Below, in pieces: positions 41,754 through 61,097 of a stretch of 64,000 nt of DNA. Each line of letters starts with the position of its first letter. Positions within the stretch are counted from its first letter, which is position 1. The stretch is from Sphingomonas sp. LM7. GTDB taxonomy: Bacteria; Pseudomonadota; Alphaproteobacteria; Sphingomonadales; Sphingomonadaceae. The notes below the pieces were generated by a model, which was given only the letters and a program-made list of their open reading frames with translations, made no database searches and was not told the DNA's origin. The stretch is taken from positions 3,565,001 to 3,629,000 of the forward strand of contig NZ_CP019511.1 of NCBI RefSeq assembly GCF_002002925.1, written 5' to 3'. The position numbers and the translations under genes were made by a program.

Positions 41754-42680
41754 TCATCGCCGTCTCCGATCGATAACAGCGATCCCCGCCGCACGGGCCT
41801 TGTCGAACAGATTGTCCTGGATGCCCCCGCCCGGGAAAATGATGATGCCCCGCGGCATGGTCGCGAGCACCTTGTCGTTGCGCTTGAACGGTGCGGCTGC
41901 GCGGCTGTGCCTCGTGAAGTCGGGAGCGAAAGGGACCTGGGGGACATTGCGCTGCGCCGCCCAGAGCGCGGCGATCCGCTCGGCGCCGATGCGCGAGGCG
42001 CCGTGCAGCAGCACCATCCGCGGATTGCGGGAATGGACTTCGTCGAGGACCCGCCAGATTTCGCGGTGATCGTTGTAATCGGCACCGCCGCTTACGTAGA
42101 TCCGCTCGCCGGGGGGCAGCAGCAACTGGCTGTCGGTCCAGCGACGGCCGTTCACGAATTCGCGGCTCTCGATCACCGCGGCGGTCATCGCGCGGCGATT
42201 GAGCATCGAGCCCGAGCGCGGCAGCCAGGCCTTGCGGTAATAGTGCCGGAACTGCTCGGCGAAGGCGTCGCGAAAGGCTTCCATCGCGTCACGGCGCTCG
42301 ATCATGGTGCGCCCTTCGGCGATGAGCGTCTCGAGCTCGACTGACTTGACCTCGGAGCCGTCCTGCTCGCGCTGGAGGCGACGTTGGGCCTGTTCGTTGG
42401 CGTCGAGCTCGCGTTCGACCCGTTCGCCGGCGCGGTGGAATACATTGGTGAAGCCCCAGAGCAGGTCTTCCATGTCGGGCTCGAGCCTGGTGTCGGCGAG
42501 GCACGCCACCATCGCATCGAAGCTGTCGGCGGCCGCGGCCTCGACCAGGCGTCCTTCGGGCAAGGGCCGCGGGTCGAGATCGTCGTCGAAGGGCCTGCGT
42601 CCGTAGAGTTCAAGCTCCTGGAGCATGTCGGCCAGCGGCGATTGCCCGGCCGTGCCGTCGTCGGTGTGATCCAAGGTCAT
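41754..42680 (-). CDS. DUF2493 (SLOG-like) protein of mobile-element backbone
   Basis: A 308-residue protein. The C-terminal 120 residues form a DUF2493 domain with ERIYVSGGADYNDHREIWRV, the Rossmann-like MVLLHGASRIGAERIAALWA and GIIIFPGGGIQDNLFDKARA. The N-terminal part is charged and helical. DUF2493 belongs to the SLOG nucleotide-sensor superfamily, and such proteins are frequent on sphingomonad plasmids and integrative elements. The specific function is unknown. GGAGA lies 6 nt upstream of the ATG. Confidence 0.85.
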   Translation of the reverse strand: MTLDHTDDGTAGQSPLADMLQELELYGRRPFDDDLDPRPLPEGRLVEAAAADSFDAMVACLADTRLEPDMEDLLWGFTNVFHRAGERVERELDANEQAQRRLQREQDGSEVKSVELETLIAEGRTMIERRDAMEAFRDAFAEQFRHYYRKAWLPRSGSMLNRRAMTAAVIESREFVNGRRWTDSQLLLPPGERIYVSGGADYNDHREIWRVLDEVHSRNPRMVLLHGASRIGAERIAALWAAQRNVPQVPFAPDFTRHSRAAAPFKRNDKVLATMPRGIIIFPGGGIQDNLFDKARAAGIAVIDRRRR

Positions 42681-43553: not shown

Positions 43554-44582
43554 CTAGATCGCCGCGCCCTTCTCCTCGGGCTGAAGCTGGGGTCGCAGCC
43601 GTTCGGCGAGCGTCGCCACTCCGAATGCGCAGAGGTCGGCATTGAAGTCGTCGAGCTCAGAGTTGAGTGGGACGACCTCGATGCCAGCGGATGCGCCGCG
43701 CGCCGCGAGTTGGACGAAGGCGGCGCGCCCCGCCCCGTCATCCTCCCGCGCGACATAGAGCCGGCGCAGCGGCTCGGGGAAGCGGATCGCCGCCAGATGC
43801 GCGGCCGAGAGCGCGGCGATCATCGGCATGCGCGGCATCGACATGCGCAGCGACAAAACGCTCTCGATGCCTTCGCCCGCAACCATGACCGGTGCCGCGC
43901 CGCCGAAGCGGACGCCGTGCCCGAGCAATTCGCCCATGGCGCGGCGGGGAACCGCGACCGGCGCCTTGCCGCAACCGCTGCCGTCGAGCCACGTGCGGTG
44001 GACGCCCATGATGCTGCCGTCCAGATCGGTGACGGCAGCGATCAACGCAGGCATGGCCGTAGGCGTGGGCGCGACATCGTCGCGATCGGGGCGATACCAG
44101 CAGGCGGCATGGAAGCGCAGCCATCGTGCGGCGCGCATGCCGGTGATGCCCCGGGAGACGAGATAGCGCTCCGCGAGAGTGGCCCCGATCGGGCGCGATA
44201 TGGCGAACAGCCGCCGGGCAGCTGCCGGCGAACCGGCTGGCGCAGCCTCCGCGTCGAAGATCTCGGGTGCTTCCGACCTCGGCAATGCGAGGAAGCGCCG
44301 CGCCTCGTCGAGGGTGTCAGCCAGACGGCGGTGGCCGTAGTGGAGCGCGAGCAAATCGAGCAGATCGCCATGCGCGCCGGTCGCGGCGTCGGTCCATTTG
44401 CCCGCGGCACCGCGGCCGTGATCGGGACCTTTAAGGCGCACATAGAGGCTGCGTCCGGCCGAACCGAACGCGTCCCCGACAATCCAGTAGCGGCCCTCGG
44501 GCCGGCCGGCGGGAAGGTAGCGGCGGCACAGGGCTTCGGCATTGCGCGCGAGCCTGCGCGACAGGTCCGAGGCTGCGGACAT
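43554..44582 (-). CDS. Toprim domain protein (primase-like)
   Basis: A 342-residue protein. The N-terminal region has a short fold related to plasmid primase/helicase proteins (RYWIVGDAFGSAGRSLYVRL), a middle part resembling DUF7146 and a C-terminal toprim domain: PVMVAGEGIESVLSLRMSMP with the catalytic Glu, and LYVAREDDGAGRAAF with the D-x-D-like motif (EDD). It is probably a primase-like protein of a plasmid or integrative element. It is separated from the ParB gene by a rho-independent terminator; GGAG lies 7 nt upstream of the ATG. Confidence 0.85.
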   Translation of the reverse strand: MSAASDLSRRLARNAEALCRRYLPAGRPEGRYWIVGDAFGSAGRSLYVRLKGPDHGRGAAGKWTDAATGAHGDLLDLLALHYGHRRLADTLDEARRFLALPRSEAPEIFDAEAAPAGSPAAARRLFAISRPIGATLAERYLVSRGITGMRAARWLRFHAACWYRPDRDDVAPTPTAMPALIAAVTDLDGSIMGVHRTWLDGSGCGKAPVAVPRRAMGELLGHGVRFGGAAPVMVAGEGIESVLSLRMSMPRMPMIAALSAAHLAAIRFPEPLRRLYVAREDDGAGRAAFVQLAARGASAGIEVVPLNSELDDFNADLCAFGVATLAERLRPQLQPEEKGAAI

Positions 44583-44644: not shown

Positions 44645-46765
44645 TTATTCGGCAGCGATGGCGAAGGATTCGGCGTCGGCGTCGGCTTCCGCCCGATCGG
44701 TTCCGAGCGGAGCCGGATCGTCGTTCGCGACCGGGGCGGCGGGTGGCGTGTCAGGTTCGACCGGCGCCGGCGTGCGCAGCGGCTCCGCGAGCCAGCCGCT
44801 GCCGTCGAGCAGAGATTCGGCCTCGCGCGCCATGTCGGGCTTCTTCAGCCCGGCGATACGTGCTGAGACCTCGGCGCCCTTCGCTTCCTCGACGGCGGAC
44901 AGGATCCGCGCCTTGGTCACCCGGCCAAGATAATTGTCGACCGTCGCGCTCCAGCCTGCTGCCACCGGATCGAGGCCGGCGGCGCGGGCAAGGACGTGCG
45001 AATGGGCGAGGCGGCCCGCCACCGCCCGTCCCGATACCCGGCCATCGCTGTAACGGTTGGCGGGCTCCCAGACGGCATTGATGCCGGACGCGGCGCAATG
45101 CGCGAACAAGGCGGCCTGCTCATCTGCGGAGAAACCGGCGAGCGTCTCCCAGAGCTGGTCGGGATCGTCGGGCAGACGATCTGCCCACGCCTGGCTTCGC
45201 TGCTCGATGGCCTGCGCCGACGGACTGTCGCCCAAGCCCGGCGCATGGTTGCCGAGACTGCCGCCGCGCACCGAAATCTCGACGCAGCTCTCGGCGCCGG
45301 CATAGCGGTAGAAGGCGTCGAGCACGAGCGCGTGAAGGACGGCAGCGAACGCGACGGCAGGGCTGAGCGCGACGGCGTTGCGCAGCGCGAGCGTGCGCCA
45401 GGTTGTGAGCTCGGTCACCAGCCGGTCGGGCAGTGGCTTGCCCGGGTCCTCCTGCTCCTCCTCCTCGTCGCCAGCATCCGGGGCAGCGATTGCTTCGCCA
45501 GAGCCCATCGAATCCTCATCGGCGTCGGGGCGCTCCTGCAAGGCATCGGGGTCGGGCACTTCGTCGTCGACGATCTCGAGGCCGGGCTCGTCCTCCGGAC
45601 GGACATAGCCGCGGTCCACATCGATCCCGCCCAGCCGGTCGATGCTGATGAACACGCCGGCCCGGGCCACTTCGTCCGGGTCGTAGGCGAGCGGCCGCTC
45701 CACTATCGCCGCGATCTCCTCGTCGATCGCGGTCACGCGTGCGTCGATCTCGTCGGGAATGTCGGGCTTGCCCGACCATTCGCCTTCGAGCGCCTCCGCC
45801 TCGCGGCGAAGCGCCTCGAGCCGCGATTCCTGCTCGTCGGTGAGCGGAGGCTGCTCGCCTTCGAGGATGCGCATGCCCGCATCGGCGTCGTACGGGAACT
45901 CGACCGCGGTCGCGATCCACTTCCAGCCCTCGCCGGCGATGCGGTCGGCTTCCGCTTTGAGCTTCGCGTCGACAAGGGCGTCGAGCATCGCGACATCCTG
46001 CAGCCAGCCGCCGTCATCGGCCTCGAACAGATCGCGCAACACATAGCCGCCGGCGGCCTGATAGGCGTCGAGCCCGATGAAGCGGGCACGCTTGTCCGAT
46101 GCACGCACCGCTTCCTCGGTGAGCTTGTGCCGGATCATCCATGGCTGCTTGTTGTGGCTCGACTGGAGCAGCTCCCAGACCTGCTCCTGGCGCGCATGAT
46201 CCTCGGACACCGAGAAGGCCATGAGCTGCTCGAGCGTCATGCCGTCTTCGGCATAGATGTCGTGCAGCCGGGGTGAGACCGAGGCGAGGCGGAGGCGCTG
46301 CCTGACCACCGCGGGCGTGGTCATGAAGGTCGCGGCGATCGTTTCGACATCACTGCCCAGGCCCGCGAGCTGCTGCATCGCGCGGAACTGGTCGAGCGGA
46401 TGCAGGGCCTCGCGGTGGGTGTTCTCGGCGAGCGAATCCTCCTCGGCCGAGATTTCGTCATCGTCGCGCACGATGCACGGCACGGGCGCGGTGCGCGACA
46501 GGCGCTTCGCCTTGACGAGCTGCTGGAGGGCGCGGAAGCGGCGGCCGCCCGCCGGGACCTCGAACTTGCCGGTCTCGGCCCCGGACTCGTCGCGCTGCGC
46601 GCGCACGGTCAGGCTCTGGAGCAGCCCGCGCCGGGCGATGTCGGCGGCGAGCGCGTCGATCGAGACGCCGGCCTTCACACGCCGGACATTGGACTGGCTG
46701 AGCACCAGCTGATTGAAGGGAATGTCGCGCGAGGCACTCAGCGCGATCTTGGTCGGCTTGGTCAT
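44645..46765 (-). CDS. ParB/RepB/Spo0J-family protein, large mobile-element type
   Basis: A 706-residue protein. Near the N-terminus is a ParB/Srx nuclease-like domain: DIPFNQLVLSQSNVRRV, FEVPAGGRRFRAL and EDSLAENTHREALHPLDQFR, then an HTH region (VETIAATFMTTPAVVRQRLR). The long C-terminal half is acidic and helical, of unknown role. Such long ParB-like proteins occur on sphingomonad plasmids/ICEs and may act in partition, regulation or as CTP-dependent DNA-binding factors. ATG at 46765 with GGAGA 6 nt upstream; a structured leader covers the start region. Confidence 0.85.
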   Translation of the reverse strand: MTKPTKIALSASRDIPFNQLVLSQSNVRRVKAGVSIDALAADIARRGLLQSLTVRAQRDESGAETGKFEVPAGGRRFRALQQLVKAKRLSRTAPVPCIVRDDDEISAEEDSLAENTHREALHPLDQFRAMQQLAGLGSDVETIAATFMTTPAVVRQRLRLASVSPRLHDIYAEDGMTLEQLMAFSVSEDHARQEQVWELLQSSHNKQPWMIRHKLTEEAVRASDKRARFIGLDAYQAAGGYVLRDLFEADDGGWLQDVAMLDALVDAKLKAEADRIAGEGWKWIATAVEFPYDADAGMRILEGEQPPLTDEQESRLEALRREAEALEGEWSGKPDIPDEIDARVTAIDEEIAAIVERPLAYDPDEVARAGVFISIDRLGGIDVDRGYVRPEDEPGLEIVDDEVPDPDALQERPDADEDSMGSGEAIAAPDAGDEEEEQEDPGKPLPDRLVTELTTWRTLALRNAVALSPAVAFAAVLHALVLDAFYRYAGAESCVEISVRGGSLGNHAPGLGDSPSAQAIEQRSQAWADRLPDDPDQLWETLAGFSADEQAALFAHCAASGINAVWEPANRYSDGRVSGRAVAGRLAHSHVLARAAGLDPVAAGWSATVDNYLGRVTKARILSAVEEAKGAEVSARIAGLKKPDMAREAESLLDGSGWLAEPLRTPAPVEPDTPPAAPVANDDPAPLGTDRAEADADAESFAIAAE

Positions 46766-46823
46766 GGGTCTTCTCCATGACGGGCGGCCGGGAGCCTCTC
46801 TCTCGACCCTCAACCCGTCATGG
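46766..46823 (-). ncRNA. Structured 5' leader of ParB gene (radC-motif-like candidate)
   Basis: The 58 nt before the start fold into an outer 10-bp stem CCATGACGGG/CCCGTCATGG (46823-46814 with 46784-46775 in RNA sense) around a loop with GAGAGAGAGGCTCCCGGC. The last two stem bases are the first G residues of the GGAGA ribosome site. A near-identical leader precedes the DUF932 gene, with compensatory base changes. The arrangement recalls the radC RNA motif described upstream of mobile-element and DNA-related genes, but I have not confirmed the match. Confidence 0.6.
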
Positions 46824-46835
46824 CGCCGGCGCCGC

Positions 46836-46857
46836 CCTCTCCCTTTGATGGGAGAGG
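46836..46857. repeat. Short palindrome downstream of DUF932 gene
   Basis: CCTCTCCC (46836-46843) and GGGAGAGG (46850-46857) form a perfect 8-bp hairpin with a 6-bp loop. It lies between the DUF932 stop and the ParB leader, with no T-tract. A degenerate CCTCTCCCTCT sequence occurs again at about 48166-48180. It may act as a weak terminator or be an intergenic repeat. Confidence 0.5.
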
Positions 46858-46891
46858 ACGACGCCGGACCCGGACCAGCCGGTCGGAGGGG

Positions 46892-48097
46892 CTAGCCCGC
46901 CATCGCGAGGAGCTTCGCGGCCTTGCCCTCCAGCTCGACCCGCGCGTCCTGGTGCGGCTTGTCGCGCGCCAGCGCGGTGATGCCCTGGACGAAATCGAAG
47001 ATGGACGCGGGCGGATGCCCTTCCTCGTCGAGCACGGTGGCGATGATCCGGCCGGTCTCGGCCTTTGAGAAGCCGCGCTTGCGCAGGAAGTCCTGCCGGT
47101 CCTCTTCGCTGCGGGCGACGACGCGCTGCCGGGCAGCCAGGATGCCCGACAGAAAGGGCGTGGGCGAGGAATTGGCGAAATTCTCGAGCGCGGGCGCCGC
47201 CTCATGCGCGAAGCGATTGGCGGCGAACTTGGAGTGGCGGATGCTGATCTCCTCGAAGCCTTCGGCGCCCCAGATGTTGCGGTTCATGCAGACCGCGCGG
47301 AGATAAAAGCTCGCCATGCCGAGCGTCTTCGAGCCGACCTCGCTGTTCCAGCAATAGAAGCCGCGGAAATAGAGGTCGGGGTCGCCGTTCGGCAGCCGGC
47401 CTGCCTCGATCGGGTGCGCATCGTCGACGAGGAAGAGGAAGACGTCGCGGTCGCTCGCGTAGAGCGTGGTCGTGTCCTTCGTCACTTCGACGAACGGATT
47501 GTGGGTCATGGTCGACCAGTCGAGCATGCCCGGCACCTTCCAGCGCGTGTCGCCGGTGCCGTTGCCCGCGATCCGCATCACCGCCGCGACGAGTTCGTGA
47601 TCCCAGATCCGGCCATAATCGGGGCCGGTGACTGCGCGCAGCTCGGTGCGGCCGTCCTCGGTCTCGAGCGTCTTGATGAGCTCGCCGCGATGGGTGAGCA
47701 AGCCGTGCTGAAGGTTGATGCCGGAGAGCGGCGCGGGGAGCTGGCGGAGATAGCCGGATGGGGCGCCGACCAGGCCGCAAAGCTGGCCGAACGACCAATG
47801 GGTCGGCGCAATCGGCGCGTCGCGGCCCGGGAGCAGGAGTGCGAGGCGCTCGGCATCGTCGCGGCTCGCCTCCACCCGGACCTCGCGGGTTTCGACTGTT
47901 CTGGTGGTGGCGCGCCGTGCCCGCGCCTCGACCGCGGCGTGAAGCTCGGTCAGCGAGAGGAAGCGCTCGTCGTCGGGGCGCGAAAACCATTCGGACGAGA
48001 CGCGGCCGATACGAGACCCTCGCGAGATGTCGACCTTGTAGGCGCCGGATGCAGCGCGCGTGCCCGCGCCGGGGAGGTGATCGATGACGGTAGCCAT
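46892..48097 (-). CDS. DUF932 protein (phage/plasmid DUF932-like)
   Basis: A 401-residue protein of the DUF932 family, with ARRATTRTVETREVRVEASR, then YGRIWDHELVAAVMRIAG, ASDRDVFLFLVDDAHPIEAG, and KFAANRFAHEAAPALENFA. DUF932 proteins are encoded on phages, plasmids and ICEs and are sometimes linked to antirestriction; no biochemical role is established. The start at 48097 follows GGAGAAA. It has the same type of structured leader as the ParB gene. Confidence 0.88.
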   Translation of the reverse strand: MATVIDHLPGAGTRAASGAYKVDISRGSRIGRVSSEWFSRPDDERFLSLTELHAAVEARARRATTRTVETREVRVEASRDDAERLALLLPGRDAPIAPTHWSFGQLCGLVGAPSGYLRQLPAPLSGINLQHGLLTHRGELIKTLETEDGRTELRAVTGPDYGRIWDHELVAAVMRIAGNGTGDTRWKVPGMLDWSTMTHNPFVEVTKDTTTLYASDRDVFLFLVDDAHPIEAGRLPNGDPDLYFRGFYCWNSEVGSKTLGMASFYLRAVCMNRNIWGAEGFEEISIRHSKFAANRFAHEAAPALENFANSSPTPFLSGILAARQRVVARSEEDRQDFLRKRGFSKAETGRIIATVLDEEGHPPASIFDFVQGITALARDKPHQDARVELEGKAAKLLAMAG

Positions 48098-48154
48098 TGG
48101 ATTTCTCCGCGACGGGCGCCGGGAGCCTCTCTCTCGGTCCTCACCCGTCACGGC
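48098..48154 (-). ncRNA. Structured 5' leader of DUF932 gene (same family as ParB leader)
   Basis: About 87% identical to the leader at 46766-46823. The outer stem reads CCGTGACGGG/CCCGTCGCGG in RNA sense. Relative to the other copy one A-U pair has become G-C and one U-A pair has become U-G, so pairing is kept while sequence changes. The GCTCCCGGC loop and GGAGA ribosome site are conserved. It probably controls translation start. Confidence 0.6.
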
Positions 48155-48322
48155 CAACACGGCCAACCTCTCCCTCTCAAGGCGGGGCGTTGCGGGGCGC
48201 GGCCCCGCAGAAGGGGTAGGGCGAGACCTGGGCTTGCCCTCAGGGGAAGGCGTTCCCCTCCCCAACAACGTTCATGGGAACCCTCGCGAATCTCGTCGAT
48301 TCATTCCGCAAGGAGATAAGAT

Positions 48323-48514
48323 ATGAGCGACGATACGACTCTGCGCGCGCCGCAGGATGCTTCCCGCATCGCCATGGGCGAGGACTATGAGGTGCGCTAT
48401 TGGACGAACAAGTTCGGGGTAAGCCGCGATCGGCTGCAGGAAGCGGTGGACGCGGTCGGCAACAGCGCGACCGCTGTGGAAGCCTATCTACAGCGTGCGG
48501 CCGCCAATCCATAA
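48323..48514 (+). CDS. DUF3606 small protein
   Basis: A 63-residue protein of the DUF3606 family, with YEVRYWTNKFGVSRDRLQEA and VEAYLQRAA, a small helical fold widespread in proteobacteria, often on plasmids. AAGGAG lies 6 nt upstream of the ATG. It is transcribed divergently from DUF932. The 225-bp gap holds the DUF932 leader and two strong palindromes (TGCGGGGC/GCCCCGCA and AGGGGAA/TTCCCCT). Function is unknown. Confidence 0.75.
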   Translation: MSDDTTLRAPQDASRIAMGEDYEVRYWTNKFGVSRDRLQEAVDAVGNSATAVEAYLQRAAANP

Positions 48515-49632: not shown

Positions 49633-52895
<3,263 letters not shown>

Positions 52896-52896
<1 letters not shown>

Positions 52897-54704
52897 CAGC
52901 CGAAGAACCCGTGCAGATACCAGCTGAGGTCGCCGGTCTCGGGCACGACGCCGTCGCCGCGGCGGAACACCCAGAAACGCTGCCCGCCCTCGACCTCGAC
53001 GCGGAAATAGTCGCGTACCGCCCAGAGCTCGCGGTCTGTCCGCCACCATTCGCCATGAATGCGCTCGGGACCGTCGCCGGCAACGACCGCATAGGGCTTG
53101 CCCCGCCAGGTGAAACGCCGCGGCGGATGGTCGGGCAGCAAGGCGACGACATGGCTGAGCATCTCGGGACGCCGGAGCAGGCGCACCGGCCGCTTCCAGG
53201 CCGGCCAGCCCTCGACGACCGCGAGCGGGTCCGCGCGCCGTATGGCGCGCTCGGGCACATCGCTCTGCTCGAGAGTCAGACGGAACACCGCCTGCTCCCC
53301 GGCACGCCCGGCAAGCTGGTCGATCGCCGGGGCAAGGTCCGGCGCATCGCTGCTTTCCGGCAAAAGCATGTCGCCATACCGTGCGCCAAGGGGCTCGCTG
53401 TGGGGGACGGTGAGATGCATCGCCTCGATGCCGAGCCCCGGATCGATGCGCTCGAGCTTCAGGCCGAACATGCGCACGAGATGCTTTGCGTCGCGTGTGG
53501 CGCGCGATGCGCCGATCGCGATCCGCTGGTCGGCGCCGTCGACACGGACAGCGGTCAGCACGACGCTGCGCACGCCGAGACCGCGCTGCTGGAGGACGCG
53601 CACCAGATCGTCGACCAGATCGGCGATCACCTGCTCGATCGCCTCGGCGGTTCCGATCGGCTCGAGCAGCCGGCGTGAGACTTCCGGCGCCTCGAACGGG
53701 ACGACCGCTACGATCGGCTCGGCGGCGCGGCCGAGCGCCTGATCGAGCCGTTCGACGGAGGTGAGGCCAAGGCGGCGCGCCAGGGGCCCGCGCGGCATCG
53801 GGTAGAGGTCGCCGACACGTTCGAGCCCGAAGCGCGCCGCGGCGACGAGCGCATCGGGCCGGAGACGCAGCGCGGCGATCGGCAGGCTGGCCAGCGTCGA
53901 AGCCTCGGCCGAAGGCGGCAGGATTGTGATCGGCTCGCCGCCATAGCGCGCCAGCGCATGCGCCGCCCCGGGCGTGCCGGCGATGGCGATCGCGCCCGAA
54001 AAGCCGAGGCGCGCGAGGAAGCGCAGCACATGGCGGCAAAAGCACACCTCGCCACCGAAGAGATGGCTGGCGCCGGTCATGTCCAGCCAGATGCCGTCCG
54101 ATCCCGACACGCTGGCAGTTGGCGTCCAGTGCGTGACGGCATGCAGCGCGAGGCGGTCGAGCCAGGCACGGTCGGCCGCGGCATCGGCCTCCTCCACGTC
54201 GAGATCGCCGACCAACGCCCGTGCGTGTGCGGCGGCCATGCCGGGCACCAGCCCCAGCGCCAGTGCGACCGGGCAGGCCGCGGTCACGACCTCGCGCTGC
54301 CCGACCCGCTCGATCAGCACGGTCGGACGTCCCCAAAGCGGCGTTCGAACCGGAGCAAGGGCGGCACCGGCCGGGCCACCCTCGTCCGGGCGCATCGCGC
54401 GAAACGGCGGATCGGCCGGCTCCGACCGCCGGCCCAGCTCGCGCATGGGCGGGCGCTGATGCGCCGGCAGACGCGCGATTTGCGCTTGGACGTCGGTCTC
54501 TCGCGCTGCGCCGTCCTGCGCCCAGCGCGCACCGGGACGCCAGCCCCCGCCGCGCGGGGCCGAGCAGGCGCCTGGATCATCATCGACCGGTGGCAGCAAA
54601 GGTGCCGGGGACCAGGCGCGCTCAGGCGGCGCGACTGGTCGCTGCGACCGGCGCAGCCGCTCGATCGCGAGCTGCGGCAGGTAGAGCGAGGCGACCCGTG
54701 TCAT
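52896..54704 (-). CDS. imuB: ImuB, Y-family polymerase-like mutasome protein
   Basis: A 602-residue Y-family polymerase homologue, with [14 protein letters not shown] at the start, [20 protein letters not shown] and [14 protein letters not shown] in the palm/finger region, and a long C-terminal part ([20 protein letters not shown]). ImuB lacks the catalytic acidic residues of active Y polymerases and serves as a hub between ImuA, DnaE2 and the beta clamp. The start at 54704 gives the normal N-terminus and overlaps imuA by 83 bp; an upstream in-frame start lies well inside imuA. Confidence 0.9.
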
Positions 54705-55398
54705 CGCATGCCTCGAGGATGAGAGAGAAGGGATTGCCGCCGCGCTGGCGGACGAGATCGACCGACCAGCAGCCACGGCCGACGCCTGCATGCGAAAGCG
54801 CCGCCGAAGGCGCGCAGCCAATCCGCCACCGCGTGCAGGCGGCGGAGGGTTTCTCGAGCGGGTCCCGTGCGGCGCGCGCCCAGCGGCGCAGCAGCAGCAT
54901 CGGGGTATGGCCATCGGCAGCGGCAAGCTGGAGGCGGCGCGTCGCGGTCTGATCGGCTGCTTTCACTTCGGCGACGACTGCGGCGAAGCTGCCCAGACGC
55001 AGGCAGTCTTCGGCAAGCGCGAGCGCCATGACCTCGTCCCGCGCCTCCAGATAGAGCAACTTCGCCGGGGAAATGCCCGCCTGTTCGAGCCCGGGCGCAT
55101 AGAGATCGAACCGGGTCAGCGCCCAGCCGATCGTCGCCACCGGCCGGTCGGCGAAGCGGGCCGCGATGCCCGCGACGAACAATGTCGCCGCCGCATCGTC
55201 ACCAAGCGTCGGCGAGGCGGCCGCGATCTCGTGCAGCCCGCCGCCGTCAATCCCGCCATGGGCAAGCCTCGAATCGAGTGCATCGATCCCGAACGGCAGC
55301 AATCGCGCATCGCTCGTCTCGGGCGCGGCAATGCGTGCCTTCAGCTCGGCAAGCAGGCGTGCGCGATCGGTCTCGGCAATGGCGGCTTCGGTTTGCAT
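54622..55398 (-). CDS. imuA: ImuA, RecA-like mutasome protein
   Basis: A 258-residue protein of the ImuA/SulA-RecA-like family: LLPFGIDALDSRLAHGGIDG near the start, GWALTRFDLYAPGLEQAGIS, and SRVRWRI-type C-terminal segment (CTRWRIGCAPSAALSHAGVG). It is the first gene of the imuA-imuB-dnaE2 mutasome operon, and its upstream region has a LexA box. The C-terminal 27 codons overlap imuB. ATG at 55398 is the natural start. Confidence 0.9.
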   Translation of the reverse strand: MQTEAAIAETDRARLLAELKARIAAPETSDARLLPFGIDALDSRLAHGGIDGGGLHEIAAASPTLGDDAAATLFVAGIAARFADRPVATIGWALTRFDLYAPGLEQAGISPAKLLYLEARDEVMALALAEDCLRLGSFAAVVAEVKAADQTATRRLQLAAADGHTPMLLLRRWARAARDPLEKPSAACTRWRIGCAPSAALSHAGVGRGCWSVDLVRQRGGNPFSLILEACDDTGRLALPAAARDRAAAPVAATSRAA

Positions 55399-55630: not shown

Positions 55631-56563
55631 ATGGCAATGCAGCCAATCCAGCGATGGCAGTATCGAGTGACGTTCGACCTGCGGGTCCGAAACGCCTACG
55701 GTGTCGCGTTCCAGGACTTTTTCTCCACTATCATGGAAGCCCGCTACGGAAGCGACTTCATCAGGGTAAGGCCCTTTGGCTCGCTTGGGGACAAAGGTTG
55801 CGACGGCTACGGGAGCACCGGTGGCTTGGTTTTCCAGTGCTACGGGAAGCTGGAGGATGCGGCTCCCAAAGCTGCGACCATCGCGAAGAAGATTGGCGAT
55901 GACTATCAGCTCGCCGGCGGTCATCTCGGGACGATCATGAAGGAGTGGCACTTCGCTCATAACCTTGTCAGCGGGCTACCGATCGAGGCGGTCCAGAAAA
56001 TCGAGGAACTGAAGCAGGCCGGTGCTCACGCGGTCGGCGTCTTTGGGCCGGCAAGCCTCTGGACGATCGTCGACGAACTGAAAGAGACCGACCTTTTCAA
56101 CCTCCTCGGACCGGCTGCGACGGCCGAGGATAGTCAGAACCTGAAGCTCGAGGAGGTCAGGCGTTTGACCGATTCGTTGATGGCGTCGATATCGGCGGGG
56201 ACCGTCCTGAACGGCCCGATCAAGCCGGTACCGTCGGATAAGCTGACCTTTAATCAGCTTCCAGGCCACTGGGTCCAGCTACTCACGATGGCGTCGAGCA
56301 ACGGCCCATTCGTCCAAGAATATTTCGAACAAAATTCCGATGTCGAACTGGGCGCCAGGATCGCCCAGGCGTTTTCCAGCCGGTATATGGCGCTGAAGCA
56401 GGAAGCGCTCACACCTGGACAGATCATGGACGCCCTCTACGAGCAGACGACCGGCATGGGTTCGGTGTCCACGGTGAGGCAGGTCGCCGCGCAGGCACTG
56501 CTGGCATATCTGTTTGACGCTTGCGAAATCTTCGAGGATCACACCGACAAGGTGGGGCCATGA
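55631..56563 (+). CDS. ABC-three-component (ABC-3C) system REase-like protein
   Basis: A 310-residue protein, first gene of an ABC-3C system. The N-terminal domain (about 25-80) has FQDFFSTIMEARYG, GSLGDKGCDGYG (51-62) and VFQCYGK (67-73), the pattern of restriction-endonuclease-like effector domains of this class; putative catalytic residues are D58, Q69 and K73. The remainder is helical with a C-terminal region GSVSTVRQVAAQALLAYLFD. It overlaps the middle component gene by ATGA. Catalytic activity is not proven, and the Q-x3-K spacing departs from classical PD-(D/E)xK. Confidence 0.75.
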   Translation: MAMQPIQRWQYRVTFDLRVRNAYGVAFQDFFSTIMEARYGSDFIRVRPFGSLGDKGCDGYGSTGGLVFQCYGKLEDAAPKAATIAKKIGDDYQLAGGHLGTIMKEWHFAHNLVSGLPIEAVQKIEELKQAGAHAVGVFGPASLWTIVDELKETDLFNLLGPAATAEDSQNLKLEEVRRLTDSLMASISAGTVLNGPIKPVPSDKLTFNQLPGHWVQLLTMASSNGPFVQEYFEQNSDVELGARIAQAFSSRYMALKQEALTPGQIMDALYEQTTGMGSVSTVRQVAAQALLAYLFDACEIFEDHTDKVGP

Positions 56564-56811
56564 TCCTTCCCTCGAAGCACATATCAGAGAGCCGTTCCCT
56601 CGCAGCGATCGGCGGCGAGATTCTCGCCCAGCTCGAAGAGCCGCGCGCCGTCTCAGAGATCTGGGAGCGGGTCCTGGCTGCCCGACGAGCGACCGGGCGA
56701 GGTGCTCCGCTGCCCTACGACTGGTTCATCTTGGCGCTGACCTTCCTCAACTCGATTTTCGCGGTGGAGCTGTCCCAAGGGCTCGTCATGCGGACGGAGG
56801 GCCGGCGGTGA
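56560..56811 (+). CDS. ABC-3C middle component protein
   Basis: An 83-residue protein matching the small middle component of ABC-3C systems: it opens with MILPSKHISESRSLAAIGGE, then VSEIWERVLAAR and PYDWFILALTFLNSIFAVEL, a winged-helix-like fold. It probably bridges the nuclease-like component and the ABC ATPase. It overlaps the genes on both sides by 4 bp (ATGA before, GTGA after), so all three proteins are made in a coupled way. Confidence 0.8.
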   Translation: MILPSKHISESRSLAAIGGEILAQLEEPRAVSEIWERVLAARRATGRGAPLPYDWFILALTFLNSIFAVELSQGLVMRTEGRR

Positions 56812-58574
56812 TCATCTCGATCGAGAGCGATCTGCCGAGTTTCAAGCCAGTCCGGCTGAAGCCTGGCCTAAACGTCCTGCTAGCCGACAAGTCCCCCTCT
56901 TCAGGTGAAAAGCAGACGCGAAACAGCGCCGGCAAATCGAGCCTTGTGGACGTCATAAACTTCCTGCTCGGGGGCAAGGCGGCAAGCGCTGTCGCCTGCC
57001 ACGACTCCCTCAAGGCCTACGCGTTCTACGGGACCTTCAAATTCGACGGCGACGAGATCAGGGTCGGACGTTCAGGCGACGAGCCGTCGAAGATATTAGT
57101 CGACGAGGAGAAGACGACGGCTTTCGGGCTGACACCCAAGCTGGACAAGAAGACCGGTCGCCATTTCGTCTCGAACGAGGTGTGGAAGGAGTTTCTCGGC
57201 AACCGACTCTTCGCATTGCCATTCCCCACCAAGGGAACGGCATTCGAGCAATCCTACACGCCCAGCTTCCGGTCGATGATCGCCTACTTCGTTCGCCGCC
57301 GCGGCGGCTTCATGCGCCCGGACAAGCATGCCGAGAAGCAGGCCACATGGGATAGCCAGGTAAATCTCTCATACCTGCTTGGTCTCGACTGGACCATACC
57401 ATTCGAGATCGAGAAGGTGCGGCAGCGCGAGCGTCAGCTGGTGGAGCTCAAGAAGGCGGCCGAGGGCGGTGTAGTCGGGGACATCATCGGCACCGTCGCG
57501 GAGCTGCGTCCAAGGGTCGTCCTGGCGGAAGCTAACGTCGAGAAGCTGCGAGGGGATTTGGCGGCGTTCCGCGTCGTCGACAGCTACCGCGAGATGTCGG
57601 ATCGAGCCTCCGCGATCCGCGGCGAGATGCTCGCGATCGAGCGTAACTCGGTGATCCTGAAGCAGACGCTAGACCACCTTGAGACCAACTACAGGGAAGA
57701 GCAGCCGCCCGCGACGACGGATGTCAATCGGCTCTACAAGGCGATCGGGATCGAACTGCCGACCGTCGCGGTGCGGCGCTTCGAGGAGGTCCGAGCATTT
57801 CACGAGTCTGTGGTGGCGAACCGACGGAAGCGCCTCGAGGAGCAGATCAACGTTACGAAGACGGAACTTTCCGAGGCTGAAGCGCGCTCGGCGGCGCTTG
57901 ACGGCGAGCGTAGCGAAATCCTCCGCTTTCTCGAAGGCAGCGGCGCGTTGGAGGACTTCACGGCACTCCAGGAACGGCTCGCGAGCCTGGCAGTCGAGGC
58001 GGCGGCGCTGCGCGAACGCTTCAACGCAGCCGAGATCCTCGAAGGCGAGAAGACTGAGTTAGAGGGCGACCGCATCAACCTGAAGCGACGTCTGCAGGAC
58101 GACCATCAGGCGCGGCAAGCGCAGCTGGACAAGGCGATCCTGTTCATTGGCGGGGCGATCGACCAGCTCTACAGCGACCGGACTGGAGGATTCGTCGTTG
58201 CCGCGAATGACGGTGGACCCGAATTCGAGATCTCGATCCAAGGAGATCGGGGCGGGGGCATCTCGCAGATCGAAATCTTCTGTCTAGACCTTGCTCTGCT
58301 GTCGCTCACCGCGGAAGCCCGGCGGGGTCCGCGCTTCCTGATCCATGACAGCCACCTCTTCGACGGCGTCGACGAGCGTCAGGTTTCAAAGGCACTTCAG
58401 CTAGGCAAGGACACGGCTGACCGGATCGGCGGGCAGTATCTTGTCACCATGAACTCGGACATCTTCGACCGACTGCCGTTGCCCGCGGCCTTCGATAAGC
58501 CTGCGCATGTGCTGTCCACGCGCCTGTCGGACGATGGCGAGGGAGGCGGATTGTTCGGCTTCAGGTTTGACTAA
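56808..58574 (+). CDS. ABC-3C ATPase (DUF2326, SMC/RecN-like)
   Basis: A 588-residue ABC-class ATPase. The Walker A region is RNSAGKSSLVDVINFLLGG (K43), the centre is a long coiled coil (about 200-470), and a DUF2326 C-terminus carries the Walker B-like RFLIHDSHLF (about 510-518; D514). SMC/RecN-like ABC ATPases act on DNA or nucleoprotein complexes. Start is GTG at 56808 overlapping the middle component stop. It is likely the sensor/motor part of a putative anti-phage or conflict system; direct activity is not known. Confidence 0.85.
   Translation: MIISIESDLPSFKPVRLKPGLNVLLADKSPSSGEKQTRNSAGKSSLVDVINFLLGGKAASAVACHDSLKAYAFYGTFKFDGDEIRVGRSGDEPSKILVDEEKTTAFGLTPKLDKKTGRHFVSNEVWKEFLGNRLFALPFPTKGTAFEQSYTPSFRSMIAYFVRRRGGFMRPDKHAEKQATWDSQVNLSYLLGLDWTIPFEIEKVRQRERQLVELKKAAEGGVVGDIIGTVAELRPRVVLAEANVEKLRGDLAAFRVVDSYREMSDRASAIRGEMLAIERNSVILKQTLDHLETNYREEQPPATTDVNRLYKAIGIELPTVAVRRFEEVRAFHESVVANRRKRLEEQINVTKTELSEAEARSAALDGERSEILRFLEGSGALEDFTALQERLASLAVEAAALRERFNAAEILEGEKTELEGDRINLKRRLQDDHQARQAQLDKAILFIGGAIDQLYSDRTGGFVVAANDGGPEFEISIQGDRGGGISQIEIFCLDLALLSLTAEARRGPRFLIHDSHLFDGVDERQVSKALQLGKDTADRIGGQYLVTMNSDIFDRLPLPAAFDKPAHVLSTRLSDDGEGGGLFGFRFD

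Positions 58575-61020: not shown

Positions 61021-61097
<77 letters not shown>

Follow-up and report, generated by a model that had tools for sequence, protein, structure and literature searches.

Within the window, by which we mean the whole 64,000-nucleotide stretch of Sphingomonas sp. LM7 DNA that was analysed, four genes on the minus strand make up one module. Two of them, encoding a ParB-family protein and a DUF932-like protein, are each preceded by a leader of about 85 nt. The genes and the parts of the two leaders are as follows.

41754-42680, minus strand: YAcAr (DUF2493-type) gene of the module
43554-44582, minus strand: Toprim gene of the module
44645-46765, minus strand: ParB-family gene, 706 amino acids, with ParB_N
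46763-46765, minus strand: start codon ATG of the ParB gene
46773-46776, minus strand: ribosome site GGAG of the ParB gene, its first two G within stem P1
46775-46785, minus strand: ParB leader, 3′ arm of P1, running into the ribosome site (predicted fold)
46787-46807, minus strand: ParB leader, hairpin P2 with loop AGAGG and one A-C mismatch (fold and model R2)
46813-46823, minus strand: ParB leader, 5′ arm of P1 (predicted fold and model R2)
46837-46846, minus strand: ParB leader, purine box AAAGGGAGAG (located by sequence; family consensus AGAGnnAGAG)
46892-48097, minus strand: DUF932-like gene, 401 amino acids
48095-48097, minus strand: start codon ATG of the DUF932-like gene
48105-48108, minus strand: ribosome site GGAG of the DUF932-like gene
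48107-48117, minus strand: DUF932 leader, 3′ arm of P1 (predicted fold)
48118-48138, minus strand: DUF932 leader, P2 region with loop AGAGG (model R2)
48143-48153, minus strand: DUF932 leader, 5′ arm of P1 (predicted fold and model R2)
48168-48177, minus strand: DUF932 leader, purine box AGAGGGAGAG
48184-48258, minus strand: three-hairpin block, a separate conserved element 5′ of the DUF932 leader

The DUF932-like protein scores 17.6 bits against Pfam DUF932, below the cut-off of 23, and its plasmid orthologues carry the annotation DUF932. The N-terminal part of the ParB protein matches PDB sequences of Spo0J, Noc, and KorB. Plasmid pDB-1 shows the gene order DUF932-ParB-toprim-DUF2493, which is that of the window, and has both leaders, while the window sits in a single 4.16-Mb contig. 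The shared order and leaders suggest that the window carries a plasmid-type module that seems to reside in the chromosome. Three other features lie in the same stretch. At 55631-58574 on the plus strand, two genes match the PADLOC candidates PDC-M68A (E 9.5e-16) and PDC-M68B (E 3e-135), the former also matching CTD10 of ABC-3C systems; this pair near the module is likely a defence pair. The long overlapping frames at 49633-55398 on the minus strand resemble what we take, from the look of their translation, to be an imuA-imuB-dnaE2 mutagenesis cassette. A tRNA gene (61024-61097, minus strand) is a possible integration site for an element.

The initial annotation had proposed two similar leaders before the ParB and DUF932-like genes, and both are present there on the minus strand. 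Their similarity held, the identity being slightly lower than the roughly 87% first given: the aligned stretches of 57 nt (ParB copy) and 58 nt (DUF932 copy) share 47 identities over 55 gap-free columns, or 85%. The stem changes between the copies, A-U to G-C and U-A to U-G, are as described, and the outer stem does reach into the ribosome site, with the first two G of GGAG lying in P1 of the ParB copy. When compared with 200 shuffles, the folds gave z values of -3.94 for the ParB leader and -4.04 for the DUF932 leader, and no shuffle was as good. An A-C mismatch lies inside P2 in both copies, and the single-sequence minimum-energy inner fold of the DUF932 copy departs from the consensus P2. 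In the own genome (4.16 Mb), model R1, which had been trained on both window leaders, reached E<1 at these two places only. Model R2, built without the window sequences from inputs that had been found with R1, recovered both (E 4e-21 and 1e-19). Two copies from one window would be thin evidence on their own; the leader claim is solid because homologues were found.

Consensus, covariation, and strand of the leader family

Homologues were sought with the DUF932-like protein, and the 140 nt upstream of the best 80 loci, nearly all of them alphaproteobacterial by record titles, contained the same leader in many cases. A pattern script that required the loop, paired arms, and GGAG marked 76 places, 40 of which were non-redundant and, aligned by sequence, constitute set A1, so that the pairing rule took part in its collection. 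Read 5′ to 3′, the A1 consensus begins with the purine box AGAGnnAGAG, followed by the 5′ arm of the 11-pair stem P1, a small internal loop that often reads GAGG, and the 8-pair P2 closed by the loop AGAGG or AGAGU; the 3′ arm of P1 then enters GGAG, after which comes the start codon. Between the box and the TGACGG of P1 lie 15 to 19 nt in 145 of the 146 leaders measured. In set A2, described below, each AGAG..AGAG position of the box is conserved at 90% or more.

Standard pairs make up 95.5% of the A1 cells, and double changes occur in 11 of 19 pairs, amounting to 55 double-change cells against 15.4 in shuffles; when the partner is slid by one column, pairing falls to 42 to 46%. Because A1 had been collected by a pairing rule, two further sets were examined. 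Set A2 comprises 68 further sequences from genome scans and plasmids, each less than 90% similar to A1 and to one another, which were found by model R1 or lay in plasmid loci picked by BLAST. Here, 93.7% of cells are paired, 15 of 19 pairs show double changes, and 74 double-change cells compare with 22.7 in shuffles. Since A1 and A2 were gathered with the pairing rule or the model, their counts lean towards structure. The third set was drawn from upstream of the DUF932 orthologues by a filter on sequence only, with no pairing criterion; 38 of the best 80 loci passed and 25 were kept. It was paired in 95.1% of cells and had 33 double-change cells against 8.4, with none of 1000 shuffles as high. 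The shuffles for all three sets ignore the relatedness of the sequences. Thus, covariation in further homologues, on which the initial annotation had made its proposal depend, is strong in three alignments. As to other folds, pairing of the box with the 3′ strand of P2 was equalled or bettered by 43 of 200 permuted pairs, and a hairpin between the box and the bases immediately 5′ to it scored weakly in every class (mean z -0.36 to -0.79).

On the coding strand, G-U pairs number 140 in A1 and 224 in A2, as against 10 and 25 A-C combinations. This large excess indicates that the coding strand folds; the fold belongs to the coding strand, either as mRNA or as coding-strand DNA. Model R2 likewise gave 82.3 bits at the ParB leader on the sense strand and 9.4 bits on the opposite one. 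Weak antisense matches overlie sense ones at two loci (19 bits in L169 and 13.8 bits in L240).

The element is tied to the translation start by its near-fixed spacing and by the predicted pairing of GGAG. With 195 of 211 model hits used (16 were dropped as repeats, cut or weakest), GGAG and a reading frame stand behind 190, and the spacing is 7 to 9 nt in 184 of those 190, where 2 to 17 was allowed. Among 220 leaders preselected for the 7 to 9 nt spacing (11 were skipped), both G of GGAG are predicted to be paired with a probability above 0.5 in 202, in folds reaching 35 nt past the first base of the start codon; the A and the last G are paired less surely (means 0.66 and 0.69). The family has two features of cis-regulatory leaders in general, namely a covarying structure of the coding strand and a place directly upstream of the start that overlaps the ribosome site.

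Distribution, associated genes, and relation to described elements

Model R1 found matches in 21 of 289 genomes sampled within the class Alphaproteobacteria and in 34 of 398 genomes from the phylum, all 34 being in Alphaproteobacteria. In another phylum draw, consisting largely of genomes already met, model R2 matched 16 of 200, of which 15 belong to the class and one, a weak match (E 0.004), lies outside it. Scans of more than 40 genomes used stricter filters, by which weak matches are lost. BLAST with the ParB leader hit 120 of 72,556 plasmid records at E<=0.01. The carriers span five orders and include Sphingomonas, Sphingobium, Rhizobium, Mesorhizobium, Methylocystis, Acidocella, Rhodobacter, Ketogulonicigenium, Phaeobacter, Asticcacaulis, and Indioceanicola.

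These two R1 scans of the class and the phylum, which were blind to genes, yielded 119 distinct hits in 52 genomes, and 106 of the 119 stand before one of four gene families: ParB (56), ArdC (23), DUF932 (22), and a small unknown family (5), the other 13 being unclassified. These classes come from BLAST to clusters that were labelled through family searches of individual members. The ArdC label was borne out on one member, which has ArdcN and MPTase-PolyVal; the small family is named RadC in one record, and its two members tested had no match in Pfam. A ParB leader is present in 45 of the 52 genomes, and 38 have at least two leader copies. DUF932 leaders occur in 17 and ArdC leaders in 20 of the 52, both together in only one. 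Being nearly mutually exclusive, DUF932 and ArdC seem to occupy the same slot, as if interchangeable. On the Phaeobacter plasmid pP97_c, copies of the leader stand before ParB, DUF932, and the RadC-named gene, and a fourth, weak match lies near a methyltransferase-helicase gene (E 0.041).

A phage origin of the leader was considered and rejected, as 50,697 phage records gave one weak match over 31% of its length. The IMG/VR contigs L240 and L241, which are called viral, have two and three sense leaders, and those looked at by eye have ParB- and ArdC-like frames behind them; both contigs may be plasmids.

The initial annotation had likened the element to the radC RNA. The structured cis-acting leader is supported by covariation, G-U asymmetry, and fixed place, and the radC identity is not supported. 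A scan of 46600-48400 with RF01754 gave no match at E<=10, and neither the whole own genome nor six leader-bearing plasmid loci (126,838 bases) had one over the gathering cut-off of 40 bits. True radC hits, found in 5 of 398 genomes, all of one family, have an unrelated architecture of 149 positions with several hairpins and a CCCAGG linker, whereas the leader consists of P1 and P2. Conversely, R1 on the radC loci gave 27 weak matches, none overlapping a radC hit; the best had 16.5 bits and lay downstream on the opposite strand. The radC RNA is associated with antirestriction and RadC genes and sits upstream of mobile-element DNA genes. The leader shares this place upstream of mobile-element genes and, like the radC RNA with its up to four hits, is a structured element repeated in one genome. 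The analogy, one leader before several mobile-element genes, holds only in the sense of working alike. In PMC2864571, the radC RNA is tabled as a likely cis-regulator in Proteobacteria, and the STAXI motif, too, is placed near antirestriction, topoisomerase, and integrase genes. STAXI consists of tandem pseudoknots (PMC2864571) and is set apart from the leader by this description.

No family of Rfam 15 matched the leaders at its cut-off, and none matched at a leader at E<=1 in seven homologous loci. At E<=10, the stretch 46600-48400 gave mir-4904 (E 0.34), MIR1858 (3.5), sR32 (7.4), and mir-4928 (7.8), the mir-4904 and MIR1858 matches covering the ParB leader's 5′ portion and sequence upstream of it; we take all four, being far below their cut-offs, as chance. 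Searches of open-licence papers brought up no description of the leader, a 2017 survey of 224 candidate RNAs being covered through those of its families that are in Rfam 15; an earlier report may exist. In word searches of PMC8632094, PMC11109978, and PMC6429828, ParB, DUF932, radC, and antirestriction were absent, as were plasmid and conjugat in the latter two. The leader appears to be an uncatalogued RNA family of alphaproteobacteria.

The nearest printed concept may be the establishment gene regulatory sequences EGeRS1 and EGeRS2 of pLS20 and p576, by analogy with their description in sections of PMC8708921. There, likewise, one conserved upstream sequence serves several establishment operons, including ardC, and EGeRS1 is rich in inverted repeats and directly precedes the ribosome site. 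EGeRS differ from the leader, as far as the same sections describe them, in belonging to Bacillus, in the 400 to 600 bp of EGeRS1, and in the strong promoter of the p576 region; the comparison is by description only. The feature that marks EGeRS, the same sequence before several establishment genes including ardC, was found for the leader with ParB, ArdC, DUF932, and the small family, and ParB and DUF932 would accordingly be counted among establishment genes.

A proposed translational role and its rivals

On entry, plasmids and integrated elements need rapid expression of their anti-restriction and maintenance genes, which must then be restrained. Printed answers to this problem include single-strand promoters (in parts of PMC11541004) and the two sequence types of Bacillus (in parts of PMC8708921). 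As excerpts of the respective reports state, ArdC of R388 is required in the recipient and not in the donor (PMC7213743), and ArdC, ParB-like, RadC, and toprim domains are parts of the early effectors of invading elements (PMC5512222).

We consider it probable, if by no means assured, that the leader is a translational 5′ RNA element that coordinates a plasmid establishment module and is shut when P1 forms. It would be transcribed as a structured 5′ untranslated RNA controlling translation of each gene behind it. With P1 formed, the first bases of GGAG would be paired with the 5′ arm, and because P1 takes up these bases, the ribosome site would be partly shut and translation repressed. The purine box and the AGAGG or AGAGU loop, both GAGAG-like, are probably contacted by a trans-acting factor common to these genes; it would most likely be a protein, perhaps one encoded by the element. 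Since the leader is common to ParB and to the ArdC or DUF932-like gene, one such factor would control the module as a unit, opening or shutting it. Expression of the module could plausibly come as a burst when the element enters a new cell, followed by shut-off. Leaders persist on chromosomes, as in the window, and no conserved alternative fold was found, both of which count against the translational reading. More tentatively, we regard as possible rather than probable an RNA regulon of alphaproteobacterial mobile elements, in which the leader and one element-encoded protein would coordinate translation of an establishment module, composed of ParB plus either ArdC or, in its place, a DUF932-like protein, for an anti-defence pulse on entry.

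The main rival is a plain insulator, a constitutive RNA element that fixes mRNA stability or a low translation rate against read-through and has neither regulator nor signal. Such an element would suit a simple stem-loop for which no alternative fold was found, and EGeRS1 of pLS20 does block read-through expression upstream of ardC, according to sections of PMC8708921. However, the unpaired box and the loop are conserved in sequence across five orders, beyond what insulation needs, and we judge this reading unlikely.

We find it improbable that the element acts as single-stranded DNA in the manner of Frpo or ssi, where the entering strand folds and RNA polymerase starts. Leading regions typically contain anti-restriction genes, and Frpo, likewise a hairpin, is found before leading-region genes of other plasmids, as described in PMC11541004, where the words ArdC and DUF932 are absent. 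A promoter of this kind should require a fold of the template strand, on which a coding-strand G-U would become A-C, whereas the leader folds on the coding strand, where A-C combinations are rare (10 and 25), and overlaps the ribosome site. Moreover, P1 ends inside the ribosome site at a near-fixed distance from the start, so that almost no leader would remain. The coding-strand fold argues equally against a double-stranded DNA operator, such as one for autoregulation by the ParB-family protein, to which the inverted repeats might otherwise belong. The match of the ParB N-terminal part to the DNA-binding group of Spo0J, Noc, and KorB and the rank of the ParB gene as the commonest target (56 of 119) would fit an operator. 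But a G-U wobble makes no palindrome in double-stranded DNA, the middle between the arms is variable, and the compensatory changes preserve pairing rather than one sequence, which leaves this reading very doubtful. Least probable is translational control by a small open frame upstream of the gene, lying in the P1 5′ arm ([AG]TG ACG GGT TGA). In its favour, 74 of the 148 leaders examined (out of 195 hits) have the stop at the fourth codon. We reject it as not general: 56 of the 148 have no stop within the stretch read, the phase to the gene is spread over all three frames (54, 52, and 41, one unknown), and pairing alone explains the conserved letters.

If the translational reading is true, a shared translational leader is another solution to expression on entry, in symbiosis, soil, and marine plasmids of alphaproteobacteria. 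The leader also offers a search handle, since genes found behind it can be taken as candidate establishment genes, and it would place DUF932-like proteins and the small unknown family in the functional group of ArdC.

Other elements upstream of DUF932 and ArdC genes

First genes (DUF932 and ArdC) have the three-hairpin block immediately 5′ of their leader, in the window as well as in L116, L135, L145, L155, and other loci. The block, which may be an operator, a promoter, or an RNA, consists of three GC-rich hairpins, namely the near-palindromic GGGGAARGCCTTCCCC, a variable stem, and TGCGGGG..CCCCGCAACGCCCC. The 72 nt preceding the box contain its core CGCAAYGC in 16 of 55 DUF932, 7 of 22 ArdC, 1 of 91 ParB, and 0 of 18 other leaders. 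Of the 16 DUF932 cases, L048 does not represent the block, and in L160, the single ParB case, the block lies further upstream. The longer CGCAAYGCCC has a frequency of 0.0016 per 72 nt over all loci, block copies included. Rfam gave no match at E<=10 over the window block, and its strand comparison gave 2 G-U and 3 A-C in 300 cells. A second copy in the own genome (G000:C1:2494117-2494164; L245, L249) is followed about 0.6 kb downstream by an ArdC gene (2494754-2495644) without the leader.

The 6.5-kb Sphingomonas plasmid NZ_CP155764.1 (L142) has one leader with a three-hairpin block; a script found a DUF932-type frame behind it, where the incomplete gene table of the record lists none. Upstream of some DUF932 orthologues without the leader, a palindrome GCAGCGCTGC is present, in 16 of the best 80 loci by a rough pattern (L050, L054, L062-L063, L065-L066, L074, L081, and others). 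Other such orthologues have an upstream hairpin GGAAGGCATG..CATGCCTTC, which was seen in 11 of the best 80 loci (L053, L058, L067, L069, and others).
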